A stretch of DNA of 64,000 bases from Halalkalicoccus sp. CGA53. Its GTDB lineage: Archaea > Halobacteriota > Halobacteria > Halobacteriales > Halalkalicoccaceae. How positions within the stretch are numbered: position 1 is the first letter of the stretch; every line of letters begins with the position of its first letter. A program made the position numbers and the translations under genes. The notes under the pieces are model-generated. The model made no database searches. It was not told the DNA's origin and saw only the letters and a program-made list of their open reading frames with translations. Below, one piece after another: positions 29,814-37,537 of this stretch. The stretch lies in assembly GCF_036429475.1 (NCBI RefSeq), contig NZ_CP144125.1, positions 1,054,001 to 1,118,000 on the forward strand, given 5' to 3'.

Positions 29814-30092
29814 TCAGTTCTCCGGGTCGTCCGGCCGGCGCGAGAGCCGGTCAAACCGGCTGCGGGCCGACTCCCGACGCTCGTCGGTCGCCGTCCGATC
29901 GGGTTCGATCGCCTCGATCGCGTCGTCGCAGACGGTGATCTGACAGACGGCCCCCCCGGAGACGCCCTCCGGAAGCTCCTCGGGGCCGAGGTGGAACTCC
30001 TCGATCGGCTCGCCCTCCGACTCCACGATCACCACCGCGAGGCCCTCCTCGATCCGGTCGACGACCGCCGTGTACTCCCCGTCGTCGATCAC
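29814..30092 (-). CDS. DUF3006 domain protein
   Basis: A 92-residue protein beginning with a GTG (VIDDGEYTAVVDRIEEGLAVV) and containing a small beta-rich core (EEFHLGPEELPEGVSGGAVCQI) plus a basic Arg-rich tail. This is the DUF3006 pattern. The start overlaps the stop of the metallo-beta-lactamase lipoprotein gene by four bases (GTGA), a pairing that recurs in other prokaryotes. A longer frame to an ATG at 30137 is possible but less like the family. Role unknown, possibly an accessory to the hydrolase. Confidence 0.85.
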   Translation of the reverse strand: MIDDGEYTAVVDRIEEGLAVVIVESEGEPIEEFHLGPEELPEGVSGGAVCQITVCDDAIEAIEPDRTATDERRESARSRFDRLSRRPDDPEN

Positions 30093-31372
30093 GCGATCAC
30101 CGCCGGTCCCGGGAGCCAAGTCGCGTCTGTCTCCCACGCGATCGGTGAAACGGGCGGAGCGCTGACCGTGGCTTCCGACTCGTCGTACAGCGCGAGCGGG
30201 TCAGTCGTCGCCTCGCTCTCGGTCTCGACCGCGAGGTCGGAGCCGTCGCTCTCGATCACGACCGTCCCGTGGACGGCCGTCCAGTAGCTCTCGATCCCCC
30301 GGTCGGCGAATGCATCTAGCACCTCGTCGTGCGGGTGTCCGTACTGGGACTCGTAGGCGGCCGAGATCAGCGCGATCTCCGGTTCGACGCTATCGAGGAA
30401 CGCGGGCGTCGAACTCGTTGCGCTCCCGTGGTGGCCCGCGTGGTAGACGTCGGCGGCGAGTTCGTCGCCGTGGGCGTCGACCATCCGTGCCTCGGCGTCC
30501 TCCTCCGCGTCGCCGGTGAAGAGGAACGCCGTCTCCCCGAACGCCAGGTGGACCGAGAGGCTGTTGTAGTGGAGGTCGTCCGGTCGGTCGCTCTCCGCCG
30601 GCGGGTTCAGCACCTGAACGTCGACGCCCTCGATCGGTATCTCGTCGCCCTCCTGGGCGTCGATCAGGTCTACCTCGTGCTCCTCGACCGCGTCGAGATA
30701 CCGGTCGTACGTCGCGGAGGTGTGGGGCACGCCCGAGTCCCACGCCTGACCGATCCCGTCGCCCTCGGTCTCGAAGTGCTCGATCACCGCGGCGTGGCCG
30801 CCGATGTGGTCGGCGTGGCCGTGCGTCGCCACGAGGTAGTCGATCCGATCGATTCCCTCCCCTTCGAGATACTCGATGACCCCCGAGCCGTCCTGCCGCC
30901 AGTCGCCGGTGTCGATCAGCATCGTCTCCCCACCCGGCCCGATGATCAGCGTGGCGTCGGCCTGTCCCACGTCGATCATGTGGACCTCGACCGACCCGTC
31001 GACCGGTTCGGTCTCCGTCTCCTCCTCGGCGTCGGTCGTGTCGTCAGGGGTTTCCTCGTCGGGGGACTGTTCGTCGTTCGCCTCCGTTCCCTCGTTCGCT
31101 TCGGCACCGTCCTCAGCGTCGGCGTCCGACGCCGGGTCCTCGTCGTCCGAGTCCACGGCCGTATCGACCTCCTCGGCGGTACCGTCGTCGGCTTCAGCGT
31201 CTCCGTCGTCGACTCCATCCGCCGCGTCGTCCGCATCGTCAGCGGCGTCCTCGATACCCTCCGGCGTCTCCGTCTCCTCGGGTGTCTCGTCGCCGTTCGT
31301 GACGTCCTCCCCGGCACAGCCGGCGAGCACGAGACAGAGGGCGACGACCACGACGAGGAGGTGACTGCGCAT
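30089..31372 (-). CDS. ComEC/Rec2-type metallo-beta-lactamase-fold lipoprotein
   Basis: A 427-residue exported lipoprotein: an N-terminal hydrophobic stretch ending in the lipobox LAGC (Cys19), then about 110 residues of Asp/Glu/Thr-rich linker, then a ComEC-type metallo-beta-lactamase domain (about 130-380) with VHMIDVGQADATLI, LIDTGD and the metal motif THGHADHIGG; further ligands come in YHAGHHGS and the STPAFLD region. ComEC hydrolase domains degrade DNA during uptake, but no ComEC channel is present, so it may be an anchored extracellular nuclease or phosphodiesterase. Coupled to DUF3006. Confidence 0.9.
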   Translation of the reverse strand: MRSHLLVVVVALCLVLAGCAGEDVTNGDETPEETETPEGIEDAADDADDAADGVDDGDAEADDGTAEEVDTAVDSDDEDPASDADAEDGAEANEGTEANDEQSPDEETPDDTTDAEEETETEPVDGSVEVHMIDVGQADATLIIGPGGETMLIDTGDWRQDGSGVIEYLEGEGIDRIDYLVATHGHADHIGGHAAVIEHFETEGDGIGQAWDSGVPHTSATYDRYLDAVEEHEVDLIDAQEGDEIPIEGVDVQVLNPPAESDRPDDLHYNSLSVHLAFGETAFLFTGDAEEDAEARMVDAHGDELAADVYHAGHHGSATSSTPAFLDSVEPEIALISAAYESQYGHPHDEVLDAFADRGIESYWTAVHGTVVIESDGSDLAVETESEATTDPLALYDESEATVSAPPVSPIAWETDATWLPGPAVIA

Positions 31373-31468: not shown

Positions 31469-33262
31469 TCACTTGCCCCAGAACGGGTCGCGCTTTCTGC
31501 GCTTCTCCAAGTACATCGAGAGTACCTCCCGCTCGTCGGCGGCGATCTCCTCAACCAGCTCCTGTTCGAGGATCTTCGCGTGTTTCTCGGGCAGTTCGAT
31601 CCAGAGTTCGTCGCCCTCGTCGATCTGGCGTCCGACCGTGGGTCCGTCGATGGCGACGCTCACCCGGTCGCCGCGGGTCGCGACTCCCACGTCCTCGCCC
31701 TGCTCTTGAATCCCCTTGATCTCGCCGACGCGCTTTGGTTCCTGGCCCTCGAACAGCGCGACGTGGGCGTTGGTCTTGATCCGCCCGCCGAGCACCTCGA
31801 CGCCGACGACCGCCGGGTTGTTCTGCCGGAAGACGTGATCGCGGAGGATTCGAAAGCGACCCGGACGGGCGATCTTCTCGAGGATCGTCTCCTGCTGGGA
31901 GCGCGCGCGTTCGGTGACGAACTCGTCGTACTCCTCGACCAGCTGGTAGATCACCTCGTCGTCGAACAGCCGTACCTCCGACTCCTCGAGAGCGCGCTCG
32001 GCGTCGGCGAGCACGTCCACGTTGAACCCCAGGATGACGCGGTGGGCGGGGTCGTTCGCCGTCCCCGCGACCGTCACGTCACGGGGGGCGACGTCGCCGA
32101 CCTCCGCACGCATGATCGGCACCGCCGCCTCCTCCAGCGCGTCGGCCATCGCCTCCAGACTCCCCAGCGTGTCGGCCTTCACGACGACGCCCTCGTCCTC
32201 GGTGCCGACGTCGATCTCCGCGAGTTCGGCCTCGACCTCCGCGATCACGTCCTCGAGCGGACGGTCGCGAACCACGCGCACCGGCGCGCCGGCCATCGCC
32301 GCGTCCAGATCGGGCGCGGCGATCTTCAGTCCCGCCGCCGCGGTGACCGAGTCGACCCGCTCGAACCGCTTTTCCGTGCGGATCTCCGCGAGCGGACGCG
32401 GCTGGAGCAGCGCCCGCACGTCGGTGACGATCGGGTCGTCCTTGCCCCCGACGACGATCGTCTCGTCCTCGCGCACCGTCCCGTCGTAGAGCACGACGTC
32501 GAGGGTGGTCCCGAAGCCCTTCTCGTCTTTCACCTCGAGGACCGTCCCCGCGCCCGGTCCGGCGACGTCGATCTCCATCTCGGTCTTCATATACCTTTGA
32601 GAAAGGCCCATCAGCACGGTGAGCAGGTCGGGGATCCCCTCGCCGGTCTCGGCGCTCACCGGGACGACGCCGACGTTGCCCTGGAAGTCGGTCACCCGCC
32701 AGTAGAGATCGGCGGAGAATCCCATGTCGCTCAGGTCGCCGATGATCTCGTAGAGCCCCTCGTCCAGCCGCCTCCTGGTCCGGTCGCTCTGGGACTCGTA
32801 GGTGCCCTGGATCGGGGCGTTCTCGGTCGGGTTCCACCCCGGGGTGGTGTCCACCTTGTTCGCTGCGACGATGAACGGCGTCTGGGAGTTCTTCAGGATC
32901 GTCACCGCCTCCTCGGTCTGGGGCTGAAACCCGTCGTTCACGTCCACCACCAGGATCGCGATGTCCGCGAGCGCCCCGCCCCGGGAGCGAAGCGTCGTAA
33001 AGGAGTGGTGACCGGGCGTGTCGATGAAGAGCAAGCCAGGTAAGTCGAAGTCGGTCGGGTCGACGAGGCTGCCCGCCACCTGCGAGACGGTTTCCAGGGG
33101 CACCGCGGTCGCCCCGATGTGCTGGGTGATCGCGCCGGCCTCGCCGGAGGCGACCGCCGAGCCGCGGATCATGTCCAAGAGGCTGGTCTTGCCGTGGTCG
33201 ACGTGGCCGAGGACGGCGACGATCGGCGTTCTGAGCGACTGTGAGTGGGTCGTTTCTGCCAT
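31469..33262 (-). CDS. infB: Translation initiation factor IF-2 (aIF5B)
   Basis: A 597-residue GTPase that joins the ribosomal subunits and positions initiator tRNA. G1 is [10 protein letters not shown]3 is DTPGHHSF, G4 is ANKVD; beta-barrel domains II-IV follow and the C-terminus ends in [11 protein letters not shown]. No intein is present, although some archaeal infB genes carry one. The following genes on the other side, a PRC-barrel protein and nob1, are separated from infB by a three-gene accessory block that looks inserted. Confidence 0.97.
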
Positions 33263-33412
33263 GAGAGATCACCGAGAAAGGGTCGTTATCGTTCTCACGC
33301 GCCGGATGGACAATAAGGCTTTCAACTCGATTCGTACGCAGAACCCACCCGTTCCGCTCGTCCGTGTCGCCGCGAGTTCAAATACGATCGCGAAGCAGAC
33401 TCGGCGAGTCAC

Positions 33413-35329
33413 ATGAAACGAAATGGTGGCTGGAACCTGGAGAACAGGACGAGACGATCGGTACTGCGGGGGTCCGCCTCGATCGGACTGCTCGGCGTCG
33501 GCTCGTCGGTCGCGTCCGCGGACGGGAGGTCGACCCACCCGAACGACGCACCGACCACCGTTGGAGATCGAGTCGAACCGACTGAACGGATGGGTGTGGG
33601 TATCGCCACGACGAGCACCGACCAGACCGCGCTCGTCATCAAGGACTGTCACCCGTGGGACGCGACGGCCAACGAAGACGCCCTCGCCGAGCATGGTGTC
33701 GACGCCTCCGTGAGCACGACCGGGACACTGGGCGAACACGACCTCACGGCGTACGATCTGATCGTGATTCCTTCGACCCAGAGCGAGGACTACTACGAGG
33801 CGCTCGCGGCCCAGCGCGACAGCCTGACCGAGTTCGTCGAACGCGGCGGCGTGCTCGTCGCACACGTCGGCATCGCAGGCTACCCCTGTACCGCCTGGGA
33901 GGTCGATCTATTCCTCCCCGGGGGTGTGGGCTCGCACCTCGAGTACTACGAACCGGTCTCGGTCGTCGATCCCTCGCACCCGATGCTGGGGGAGTTCTCC
34001 GACTCGGACCTGAGCGACTGGGGCTCGTCCACACACGGCTACCTGACCGACCTCCCCGCGGGTGCCTCGGTGCTCGCCGGTCTCGGCTTCGATCCCGAGG
34101 GGTACCCGACGGCGATCGAGTACGAGGTCGGAGACGGCGTGGTTCTCGCGACGACGCAGACGATCGAGTGGCCCTGGTCGCCGATCAACACCCACGGTGC
34201 GGGGACGAAGGAGTTGTTGCGAGCGGAGTTGGGGTATGCGAAGGAACTAGCCGGTGATGCTCTCCTCGATGAGATTCGAGAGCGAAAACGAGCGAAACTC
34301 GAACTGGCCGAGAGTGTAGACCGCAACGGAATTGGATTCGTCTCGGACCGTGCGCTGGCGGCTTCGGCACTCGACGGTCTCCTCGCTTCGGTTGAGGATG
34401 GTTCACTTGACGGTGAAATTGTCGACGAGGCTATCGAGCGAATGATTCTTGGAGAACAAGTCACTGATATGGTTCTCGCAGGAGCGGGTCCTGGAGAGTC
34501 CGAATTTCTTGATTCGGATGCCAACCTCTCGAGCCAGACGGCGATGAACGCGGTCAACCCCGTCCTCGAACTCCTGTTTGCTGGCATTTCCGTTTTGAGA
34601 GCAGCACGAGCGATACCGATGGTACGGGGTTCGGCTGATCGTGCTGTCAACGCAATCGCGGATTTCGTCGCCGACACCGCGGGGCGGTTCAGTGCATCGT
34701 TAGAACGACTGATCAGACGACGTGGCGAGTCTGCAGGGTATGAGATCCTCGGTGCCGCAGAGAGTGAAGCGTCCTCGAAAGGGAAGGAGTTGGCTGAAGA
34801 GGAATTCAAGGAGATTCGAGACGACGGAGCAACACTATTTCTCGAAGACGACAGCGACGTGATCTTCGAGGATTTTCTATTCAACGAGGAGTATGATTAC
34901 GAAGGGTACGACACTGAGCCCCTCACCGAGAGTCTTGAATACTTGATTTCTGCGTTGGATCATACCGATGGAGGCCCTGATTACTCTGGAACTATTTCCG
35001 CGGCTGAAAGATCGGCAAAAAACGCGATTGAAGGGATCAACGAGATCTGTGATACTATCTCGACCGATTTGGAGGAAGGACTGATGACTAGTATCCTCAC
35101 TCGGCTTGATATTCTCGTTCCACTAATGACGGTTGTCGCTTTTCTTGCCGGCGTCACTGGAGTATTAGCGGTGCCAGGCGCGATTGCAGCGTTCGCTGCG
35201 GGGTTAGCAAGTCTTACCGTTGGAGTTCTCTTCGGCATGGCGCAGTGGGGTAAGGGGACCACTGCTATTTTGAATATCAGGTACAGAAACCAGTGGGCGA
35301 TGCGAGCTATCACGGAGCCCTCAGCATGA
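33413..35329 (+). CDS. Tat-exported ThuA/glutamine-amidotransferase-like protein with C-terminal membrane anchor
   Basis: A 638-residue protein. The N-terminus has a Tat-type signal ([17 protein letters not shown], then A-S-A). Residues ~60-265 resemble a ThuA/class I amidotransferase-like flavodoxin fold ([55 protein letters not shown]), without an obvious catalytic Cys-His-Glu set. Residues ~266-570 are mostly helical and acidic, and 580-625 hold two hydrophobic segments. Codon usage changes abruptly near residue 266: the first part matches the genome, the rest is A/T-richer. First gene of a three-gene block; its stop overlaps the next ATG. I do not recognise the full-length family. Confidence 0.8.
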
Positions 35330-36366
35330 ACACACAAATTCTCAAGACTCTGGAGAATCTGGAAGAAGCGATTGAGGGTAACGCATACCATGATGCAATC
35401 GACATTACTGAAGCCCTGTACAATGCGTACGATAACCATCAGCCGAGAGAGCGTCTTCTAATAGAGCGAGCGAAGACTGTTGAGCGTACCGTAGGTGAGC
35501 CTGATCCGAAGGTATCGAAGTACTTAGATCAAACGACGACGGCTGCCCTCAATCGTGCTGGGCTCTCGTTGGGTCTCGGTGTTGGCTTAGCCGTGCCATC
35601 GGAGAGATCCTCAGAGCTGGTCGGGATCGTGGCCGACCTTCATCACAGGGAATCAGAAGTACTCGCTGCCTCCAAGGACGTAACGGATGTACTATGGTCG
35701 AAATCAATCCCTGCGGCTGTTACGGTTGGGTCCGCAATCGTCTCCCCATCTCCCGTGCTACGTGGCCAGGATGCGTTGGTTTCATTCACTCTTGTCAATC
35801 CTGGTGACGAACCTGCAGAGGGCGTCACGGTGTCCGCTGAGCTCTCGTCGGGAGGCGACTATCAGGAAGATGAACTAATTATTGATCCCGTCACCACCGA
35901 GTCCGTGGAATTTCGGTTCGAAGATCTCTCTGGAAGTGGATTTGAGGTGGTGCTAACCGCTACAACCGACGACTTGCGAACGGCCGAAAAGAAAATTATT
36001 GTTGAGACGTTCTCGAAGTCCATGATCGTAGAACTGGTTTCGGACCACCTACATCACTTAGAAACTACTGTCAATCGATCACGATTAGCCAATCGGGGGA
36101 AGAAGCGACGGATTCTCTCTCGAATTGACGCGAGCAAGCAGAGTGTATCACGCGCTGAAAAGCTGTTGATTGAGGGACGGGTTTCTCAGTGTGATTCACA
36201 ACTCGAGACGGCGAGCAGGCAACTTGGCTCTCTCCTCAATTATATTGAAGGAAGTACGAACCCCGACCGAGAGGAGAACGCGAAGCCATATGTCAGTCTG
36301 TTCCTGACCGTTGAGGAGACTATCGATCTCTTGTTCGACGCACAAAAGGCGTCAGTAGAGGCTTGA
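35326..36366 (+). CDS. CARDB-like domain protein flanked by helical regions
   Basis: A 346-residue protein without signal peptide or clear membrane helix. Residues 1-~60 are helical and TPR-like in rhythm (LENLEEAIEGNAYHDAIDITEALYNAYD), ~120-230 form an immunoglobulin-like CARDB/adhesion-type strand region (SPSPVLRGQDALVSFTLVNPGDEPAEGV, then VEFRFEDLSG), and ~240-346 are charged helices, possibly coiled coil. CARDB domains are normally extracellular, so their presence in a protein without an export signal is unusual. ATGA overlap with the upstream gene indicates an operon. Function unknown. Confidence 0.82.
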   Translation: MNTQILKTLENLEEAIEGNAYHDAIDITEALYNAYDNHQPRERLLIERAKTVERTVGEPDPKVSKYLDQTTTAALNRAGLSLGLGVGLAVPSERSSELVGIVADLHHRESEVLAASKDVTDVLWSKSIPAAVTVGSAIVSPSPVLRGQDALVSFTLVNPGDEPAEGVTVSAELSSGGDYQEDELIIDPVTTESVEFRFEDLSGSGFEVVLTATTDDLRTAEKKIIVETFSKSMIVELVSDHLHHLETTVNRSRLANRGKKRRILSRIDASKQSVSRAEKLLIEGRVSQCDSQLETASRQLGSLLNYIEGSTNPDREENAKPYVSLFLTVEETIDLLFDAQKASVEA

Positions 36367-36369
36367 ACG

Positions 36370-36717
36370 ATGTCGATCATCGCACCACTCGTAGTCGCGA
36401 TTCTGTTCTCCCTTCCGCTCATAGGTACGATCACATACGTGGTGTGGCGTAATCCAGAGATCCGTTCTCATTCTCAGTTCTCGAGGGCGATCGGGATCTT
36501 CGTCGCGGGGCTGCTTTTTACAGCCGTGTGTGCGATCGCTACAGTCGGGGTTTCTTATAGGGCTGTCGCTGGAAGTGAGTTAGTCGACCTTGCTCTCCTT
36601 CTTCAGTTGAGCGAGTACCTTGCGGTCGGCATACTCGTCGGGTTCTGTGTCACCCTAGGTTCCTGTGTCTATATACTACGATTGCCGAAACGTGCAAGAG
36701 CACCCGATCGAGTATAG
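36370..36717 (+). CDS. Three-helix membrane protein of the cassette
   Basis: A 115-residue protein with three hydrophobic segments (about 4-25, 40-62, 78-102) and a basic C-terminus (LPKRARAPDRV). It starts three bases after the stop of the CARDB-like gene, so it is the third member of the same operon, and shares its A/T-rich codon usage. No known family is evident. It may anchor or assemble the other two proteins at the membrane, an inference from the operon only. Confidence 0.8.
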   Translation: MSIIAPLVVAILFSLPLIGTITYVVWRNPEIRSHSQFSRAIGIFVAGLLFTAVCAIATVGVSYRAVAGSELVDLALLLQLSEYLAVGILVGFCVTLGSCVYILRLPKRARAPDRV

Positions 36718-36799
36718 ATTCATCATTCCATCTGTAACTATCTATCGTGGCTGATAAATCGAGCGTTCGGAGCTTCCGGATTGACGCCCGCCCGTGGCG

Positions 36800-36807
36800 T
36801 TTATTAC
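36800..36807 (+). promoter_or_regulatory. TATA-like box of the PRC-barrel gene
   Basis: The box tttattac lies 26-33 bases before the ATG at 36833. It marks a native promoter right after the atypical block and implies that the PRC-barrel/nob1 pair is transcribed independently of it. Confidence 0.6.
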
Positions 36808-36832
36808 CCACGCCTCGTATCTCCGAGGTACG

Positions 36833-37078
36833 ATGCCGGACATCTTAGCCGAGAACCTCTCCGGGAAGTCGGTGATGGGCTCGGACGGAACCGAACTGGG
36901 CATGCTCTACAACATCACGGTCGACCTGAAGACCGGCGAACTCCACGATCTGGTCGTCACGCCGGACGGCAACTCACAGATCGGCGAGGTCGGCTTCGAG
37001 GCCGACGACGAGGGCAGGTATCGAGTCCCGATCAGCCAAGTGCAGGCGGTCAAAGACTACATCGTCGTCAAACGGTAA
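36833..37078 (+). CDS. PRC-barrel domain protein
   Basis: An 81-residue single-domain protein: ENLSGKSVMGSDGTELGMLYNITVDLKTGELHDLVV is the PRC-barrel core, ending in strand residues KDYIVVKR. The fold recurs in RimM and in photosynthetic reaction-centre subunit H; small archaeal versions are conserved next to nob1/infB and probably assist ribosome or RNA processing, though this is not proven. Its stop is followed directly by the nob1 ATG with no gap. Confidence 0.93.
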   Translation: MPDILAENLSGKSVMGSDGTELGMLYNITVDLKTGELHDLVVTPDGNSQIGEVGFEADDEGRYRVPISQVQAVKDYIVVKR

Positions 37079-37537
37079 ATGTACGTCCTCGATTCTTCGG
37101 CGTTCATCCACGAGTACCACACCACCGAGCAGACGGCGACGATCCCGCTCGTGAGAGAGGAACTCGCCGACGAGCCCTCGTACCGCTACGACGCGATGGA
37201 GGGGTCGGGGATGCACATCCACCTCCCGAACGACGAGACCGTCGAGACGATCCGCCGGGCCGCCCGCGAGTCGGGCGACCTTGAGGTGCTCTCCGATACC
37301 GACGTACGACTGCTCGCGACCGCGTTCGAGTTGGACGGAACGCTCGTCACCGACGACTACGCGATGCAGAACGTCGCGGAGCGACTCAACGTCTCCGTCG
37401 AGGTGATCGCCCGCGACGGGATCGACGAGGCCCGCGAGTGGATCTTCCAGTGTCAGGGCTGCGGTCGCGAGTACGACGAACACCACGATCGGTGTGACAT
37501 CTGCGGTACCGAACTCGCCCGGAAGAACCCGAGCTAG
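37079..37537 (+). CDS. nob1: rRNA maturation endonuclease Nob1
   Basis: A 152-residue PIN-domain nuclease that trims the 3' end of 16S rRNA. The PIN acidic residues are in MYVLDSSAFIHEY (Asp5), LVREEL, and LSDTDVRLLA/LVTDDYAMQN. A C-terminal zinc ribbon has CQGCG (near 125) and CDICG (near 140). It is coupled to the PRC-barrel gene upstream. An intact, normally sized Nob1 with both modules. Confidence 0.95.
   Translation: MYVLDSSAFIHEYHTTEQTATIPLVREELADEPSYRYDAMEGSGMHIHLPNDETVETIRRAARESGDLEVLSDTDVRLLATAFELDGTLVTDDYAMQNVAERLNVSVEVIARDGIDEAREWIFQCQGCGREYDEHHDRCDICGTELARKNPS

Follow-up and report, generated by a model that had tools for sequence, protein, structure and literature searches.

An exchangeable-head gene pair inserted beside infB in Halalkalicoccus belongs to a recurrent haloarchaeal family of predicted surface modules

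The window, a 64,000-nucleotide stretch of the Halalkalicoccus sp. CGA53 genome, holds a cassette of three genes between infB (31469-33262, minus strand), its divergent left neighbor, and the PRC-barrel/nob1 pair (36833-37537) on its right. Gene A (33413-35329, plus strand) encodes a protein of 638 residues that, by motif, hydropathy and homologues, appears to be Tat targeted and to consist of an exchangeable head and a conserved tail. Gene B (35326-36366, plus strand) overlaps A by an ATGA and encodes a signal-less partner of 346 residues, predicted to form a four-helix bundle, a CARDB-type Ig domain and a second four-helix bundle. After a gap of three bases, gene C (36370-36717, plus strand) encodes a small membrane protein of 115 residues. 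Gene starts were taken from mechanical ORF calls, which reproduced the three same-strand genes, the overlap and the gap of the original prediction. Signal peptides and transmembrane segments were judged by motif and Kyte-Doolittle scores.

The cassette probably has a leaderless promoter (33376-33412, plus strand), with the TATA-like TTCAAATACG approximately 25 to 35 nt upstream of the A start. This element is kept at equal spacing in two relatives of the same genus, G001 and G002, and its assignment as a promoter, likely in our view, follows from haloarchaeal promoter spacing and this conservation. At the right edge of the insertion (36718-36832, plus strand), the PRC-barrel promoter block GCCCGTGGCGTTTATTA / CCCGTGGCGTTTATTA is found at cassette-free sites of sister genomes as well. 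Downstream of infB, the ORF at 30089-31372 on the minus strand encodes a protein that resembles a lipoprotein and contains an acidic linker and a domain of the metallo-beta-lactamase type, and similar ORFs lie at the matching place in both sister metagenome-assembled genomes (MAGs; loci L021 and L031).

The cassette had been proposed to interrupt a usual infB and PRC-nob1 neighborhood. We searched 40 relatives for nob1 and, in the loci retrieved, determined the positions of infB, PRC and nob1. In all seven sister-genus genomes, infB is adjacent to PRC-nob1, with a gap of approximately 130 to 150 bp that holds the promoter region only; within the fetched 1.5 kb, infB accompanies nob1 in 22 of 29 non-window haloarchaeal loci. 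This adjacency is the ancestral arrangement. The cassette is absent from this site in the seven sister-genus genomes and present in every genome of the window's genus in which the site is visible, three in total: that of the window (G000), G001, whose contig stops within gene A, and G002, a Halococcaceae MAG (record SKWB01000047). The insertion proposed from the window is thus borne out by the locus comparison, and genes A, B and C are one inserted operon. A sister MAG encodes an A protein 87% identical at the same site, and comparison with G002 indicates purifying selection on all three genes (dN/dS of 0.14 for A, 0.32 for B and 0.25 for C). As the cassette has been kept vertically in the three genomes of the genus, its arrival was not very recent.

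A mobile element was considered and rejected: there is no tRNA in the window, the cassette edges carry no telling direct repeats, and we found no relative of the cassette in plasmid records or of B in the viral contigs searched. A viral origin was also rejected, as PHROGs matches were weak (E values of 0.035 to 0.046 only).

The AT-rich block noticed in the original prediction is real and is the sole such island within the 64 kb, with GC content dropping from approximately 0.67 to 0.51-0.55. The AT-rich part starts within gene A, near the junction of head and tail. The maximum-likelihood change point of GC3 in A falls at codon 274 (approximately position 34232), where GC3 goes from 0.84 to 0.53, and none of 1,000 shuffles gave an equally strong change; the head/tail junction is at codon 284, some 10 codons later. 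At an unrelated locus, the A gene of G070 also shows a sharp GC3 change, from 0.73 to 0.40 at codon 317, which is a looser fit, being 36 codons into the tail from a junction at codon 281. In the A genes of G017 and G006, GC3 changes elsewhere in the gene. The composition of the window's A gene fits a GC-rich, genome-like head joined to an AT-rich, foreign-looking chassis. The same pattern might be read as resident genes of drifted composition, neither inserted nor part of a shared system, and the shared site in the three genomes of the genus agrees with that. However, the site is empty throughout the sister genus, the GC3 break is sharp and inside one gene, and it is contradicted by homologous A-B pairs that other genera carry at unrelated sites, so that this reading is almost certainly wrong.

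The A protein begins with a putative twin-arginine signal peptide (approximately 33413-33523, plus strand), in which TRRSVLR is combined with a hydrophobic stretch; by motif and hydropathy, such a combination is found in all 31 A proteins of the family described below. Next comes the GC-rich head (33626-34163, plus strand), which AF2 modeling and Foldseek indicate to be a class I glutamine-amidotransferase-like alpha/beta fold. The model, of medium confidence, matched 2gk3 (E value of 5.8e-6), as well as 2a9v and 1i7q, the matches including anthranilate synthase GATase subunits. Searches of the head against Pfam and NCBIfam gave no match above the cutoff, including to the ThuA and GATase families. 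The ThuA-like label first given to A therefore stands for the fold and falls for the family: as modeled, the head has the class I amidotransferase alpha/beta fold and, by profile, lies outside the ThuA and GATase families. Its only relative is the head of G017 (44% identity), and a PDB sequence search with the head and the A tail returned chance-level matches only.

The tail of A (34262-35326, plus strand) is helical and contains two hydrophobic stretches, one at residues 377-395 and another at approximately 560-610. Motif, hydropathy and model thus agree with the Tat signal, helical tail and C-terminal hydrophobic segments first ascribed to A. Across the family, the C-terminal half of A is conserved where intact, comprising approximately 350 residues with hydrophobic segments close to the end. 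The hydrophobicity of the tail is moderate in some homologues and pLDDT is below 50 over residues 558-589 of the model, making the topology uncertain.

The fold of B is predicted with confidence (AlphaFold pLDDT of 92.4) as a helix bundle, an Ig domain at residues 133-229 and a second helix bundle. In the PDB, no structure matched B over its full length, only its Ig part being matched. B of the window (P0002) gave no CARDB profile match, its best family being TRAP_beta (E value of 0.17). CARDB was matched in five of seven close homologues (best E value of 7.5e-7) and scored above the cutoff in several B homologues, and a B profile matched the CARDB structures 2kl6/3idu weakly (E value of 0.012). 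Judging from the homologues and the modeled Ig fold, the Ig domain is of the CARDB type, as originally predicted. The C-terminal domain is weakly FIMAH-like (family E value of 0.03, and in two of seven homologues). By motif and hydropathy, a signal peptide is absent from all 31 B proteins, in keeping with the missing export signal reported for the window's B, and B has no transmembrane segment in the window and in nearly all homologues.

The ends of the B homologues bear on where the protein works. Dockerin type I scored above the cutoff in B of G140 (2.5e-8), and we recognized dockerin-like repeats by eye in approximately 15 further homologues. B of G222 has a PGF-CTERM-like end, below the cutoff (E value of 0.025), and that of G388 ends in a transmembrane tail. 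The dockerin and PGF-CTERM-like ends belong to subtypes other than the window's and are indirect signs. Because B homologues carry such ends, B probably works outside the cell. It might instead stay in the cytoplasm, on the inner side of A's hairpin or of C, and relay ligand binding inward, with the exported and anchored A acting as a transmembrane sensor. This would suit a protein without a signal and, nearly throughout, without a transmembrane segment, and four-helix bundles could pass signals on, next to a C gene that in the window subtype encodes a small multi-transmembrane protein. Yet the dockerin, PGF-CTERM-like and membrane-tail parts are normally extracellular, the remaining three CARDB proteins in the window's genome, used as a control, all bear export signals, and no signaling domain (kinase, HAMP or HTH) was identified in B. 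We consider such a sensor unlikely.

The original prediction found no known system matching the trio. This holds for the set of three genes, and we reject a known anti-phage defense, as none of the window's three proteins is matched in PADLOC. It needs amending in that a widespread, recurrent A-B family, invisible from one window, includes this trio. The family was searched for with single proteins and then with A-tail profiles. We read 31 A-B loci across haloarchaea, at many unrelated genomic sites; as several share one genus, such as the five-genome G165 group, locus counts are not counts of independent events. With the A-tail profiles A1 and A5, the module was found in 27 to 28 of 392 sampled haloarchaeal genomes and 20 of 86 genera; the lowest-scoring few matches are marginal. 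Among 295 sampled genomes of the phylum, for which first-look candidates only were scored, all matches were haloarchaeal and none fell outside Halobacteria. A full-text literature search found no paper describing the A-B module.

An independent search with a B profile gave 30 loci of at least 116 bits, above the drop to generic CARDB scores; only these were counted because at low thresholds the profile matches CARDB domains in most haloarchaea. A Tat-type A gene lies directly upstream of B in 29 of the 30, among them the loci of G163, G235 and G282, which we read after this search, and the module of G163 had been missed by the A-tail profiles. The one B locus without A (L024 in G208) is a module remnant with an N-terminally truncated B and two small membrane genes. 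Of 27 measured loci, 25 have an A-B spacing of -8 to +3 nt and the remaining two are frame disrupted. In two species of the sister genus (G006 and G004; L105 and L106), a module with a LamG head lies next to alaS and includes a four-transmembrane C gene unlike that of the window, and the A gene of G004 is broken by a stop or frameshift. G285 has three A-B modules, two of them in tandem on one contig (L098 and L099), with propeller-type and BspA-like heads.

The heads of A differ widely among the loci. The amidotransferase-like fold occurs in the window and G017, VWA in G244, G163 and, together with PKD, G122, LamG in G031, G070, G004 and G006, and PKD arrays in G052, G015, G363 and the G165 group. 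PQQ propellers head the A proteins of G252, G189, G285 and G079, and FG-GAP that of G140; by eye, we assigned BspA-like repeats to the third copy of G285 and Ig-like heads to G235 and G282. Heads and tails have conflicting nearest relatives. The window's tail is closest to that of G244 (46% identity), and their heads are unrelated. G017, with the head nearest to the window's, has a tail approximately 20% identical to the window's and nearest to that of G235 (30%). The VWA heads of G244 and G163 (55% identity) sit on dissimilar tails. In such conflicting pairs, B follows the tail, not the head. Mantel correlations over 21 loci, with the nearest duplicates left out, were 0.71 between tail and B (P = 0.0005), 0.13 between tail and head (P = 0.05) and 0.22 between head and B (P = 0.007). 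Since similarities of tail and B correlate and those of tail and head hardly do, tail and B form a chassis that moves as a unit, onto which heads are swapped.

Varied binding-type heads on one anchored chassis suggest an adhesin or receptor whose specificity would be set by the head. A catalytic head, amidotransferase/deglycase-like or carbohydrate active, with the rest serving as its anchor, would make A a surface enzyme. The head's fold is like that of class I amidotransferases and, according to Foldseek, also resembles alpha/beta domains found in glycoside hydrolases; nevertheless, no family matched the head above the cutoff and the same chassis elsewhere bears VWA, LamG, PKD and propeller heads of the binding type, which makes an enzyme improbable.

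The third gene varies as well. The hydrophobic stretches of the window's C protein are consistent with three transmembrane helices, as first described. Weak relatives of C occupy the equivalent position in G244 (24% identity) and G208 (18% identity), and comparisons with distant families (DUF5367 and others) all remained below the cutoff. At loci of the helical type, small multi-transmembrane genes lie downstream in 8 of the 12 that can be judged. Nine dockerin-type loci (seven from two genera) are instead followed by a C-terminally anchored Ig/DUF11-type protein with a Sec signal, some of the anchors being PGF-CTERM-like. In L091 (G122), the position expected for C, after B, is taken by a MoxR-type AAA ATPase gene. 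In L103 (G292) and L022 (G031), small genes for two-transmembrane proteins are convergent to the A-B pair, not downstream, and may be C equivalents in opposite orientation.

Swappable targeting heads, a hydrophobic hairpin in a helical tail and a small transmembrane protein downstream could also be the parts of an antagonistic system, for which a precedent exists in the conflict role proposed for hypervariable archaeal Ig modules (PMC8416519). A would then be a secreted pore former or toxin aimed by its heads, with B as a second component and C as a small membrane protein conferring immunity. But no toxin family was matched, no pore former was among the best 50 Foldseek matches of A, and the variable part is N terminal in A and C terminal in polymorphic toxins. 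Moreover, the product of the third gene in the dockerin subtype is often a secreted, anchored Ig protein, unlike an immunity protein, and no spare immunity genes were seen. We regard antagonism as improbable.

The reading that we favor, with modest confidence, is that the products of the cassette form a modular complex at the cell surface, in which B is co-exported on A via Tat and the head binds a ligand, as in an adhesin or receptor. A surface role of the module is in itself probable. Folding of A would take place in the cytoplasm, where B would bind the helical tail. Tat would then recognize the twin-arginine signal of A and export the folded pair, with the signal-less B carried out as a hitchhiker. 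On the outer face of the membrane, the complex may be held by the hydrophobic tail of A, with help from C in the window subtype; at other loci, the anchor would be part of B or of a distinct secreted Ig protein. The N-terminal head would point outward and bind its ligand, and recombination exchanges heads on the conserved chassis of A tail and B. Co-export of B with A by Tat is the simplest account of these features, and we lean slightly toward it. TatC is present in the five genomes checked, including that of the window, and haloarchaea route an unusually large share of their exported proteins via Tat. We know of few documented cases in which a signal-less partner is co-exported without a cofactor.

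There is about an even chance that these loci constitute an undescribed haloarchaeal family of cofactor-free Tat hitchhiker complexes for polymorphic surface recognition, with swappable ligand-binding heads and a signal-less CARDB partner, some self-anchored. The family offers approximately 30 natural variants as a ready test case for cofactor-free hitchhiking. The exchange between head and chassis points to a polymorphic recognition system on the surface of archaea. Little is known about how archaea recognize other cells, viruses and substrates at this surface.

Several known systems resemble parts of this module. CARDB proteins (PF07705; 2kl6 and 3idu) share the Ig domain of B, which here sits between two four-helix bundles in an arrangement with no full-length PDB match. 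As in cohesin-dockerin assemblies, dockerin-like repeats form the end of several B homologues, and nine of these loci have a downstream anchored Ig/DUF11-type protein; however, B of the window has no dockerin, and the downstream proteins match DUF11, CARDB and PKD, with Cohesin at an E value of 0.32 only. Polymorphic toxins likewise carry an exchangeable domain on a conserved export chassis with small downstream genes. The A-B module varies at the N terminus, the opposite polarity, and has no Pfam/NCBIfam toxin match and no immunity-gene array that we could find, and we rejected its assignment to these systems.

VARTIG of Thermococcales (PMC8416519), the published system closest to the A-B module, is an archaeal surface module as well, with CARDB-type Ig domains, small membrane-protein genes after it and domain-swapping recombination. 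VARTIG varies the C-terminal Ig of one large protein, whereas A varies its N-terminal head and keeps its C-terminal chassis, and the CARDB protein of the A-B module is a separate signal-less gene product. Membership in VARTIG was rejected, as the A-B module has no large Ig protein with a hypervariable C-terminal Ig domain; gene neighborhoods surveyed in other archaea contained no modules closely like VARTIG (PMC8416519). In bacteria, hitchhiking of a signal-less partner on a tail-anchored Tat substrate is established, and C-tail hitchhikers are hard to find by bioinformatics (PMC10924467). Like the hitchhikers of hydrogenase and formate dehydrogenase (PMC10924467), the A-B pair has a Tat signal on one subunit, a linked gene for a signal-less partner and a C-terminal hydrophobic anchor, here on A or, in G388, on B. 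Unlike them, it is archaeal, it has exchangeable heads and a helical-CARDB partner, we found no cofactor-binding or redox domains, and its co-export is inferred. The module combines known kinds, Tat hitchhiking and domain-swapping surface modules, rather than introducing a new principle.
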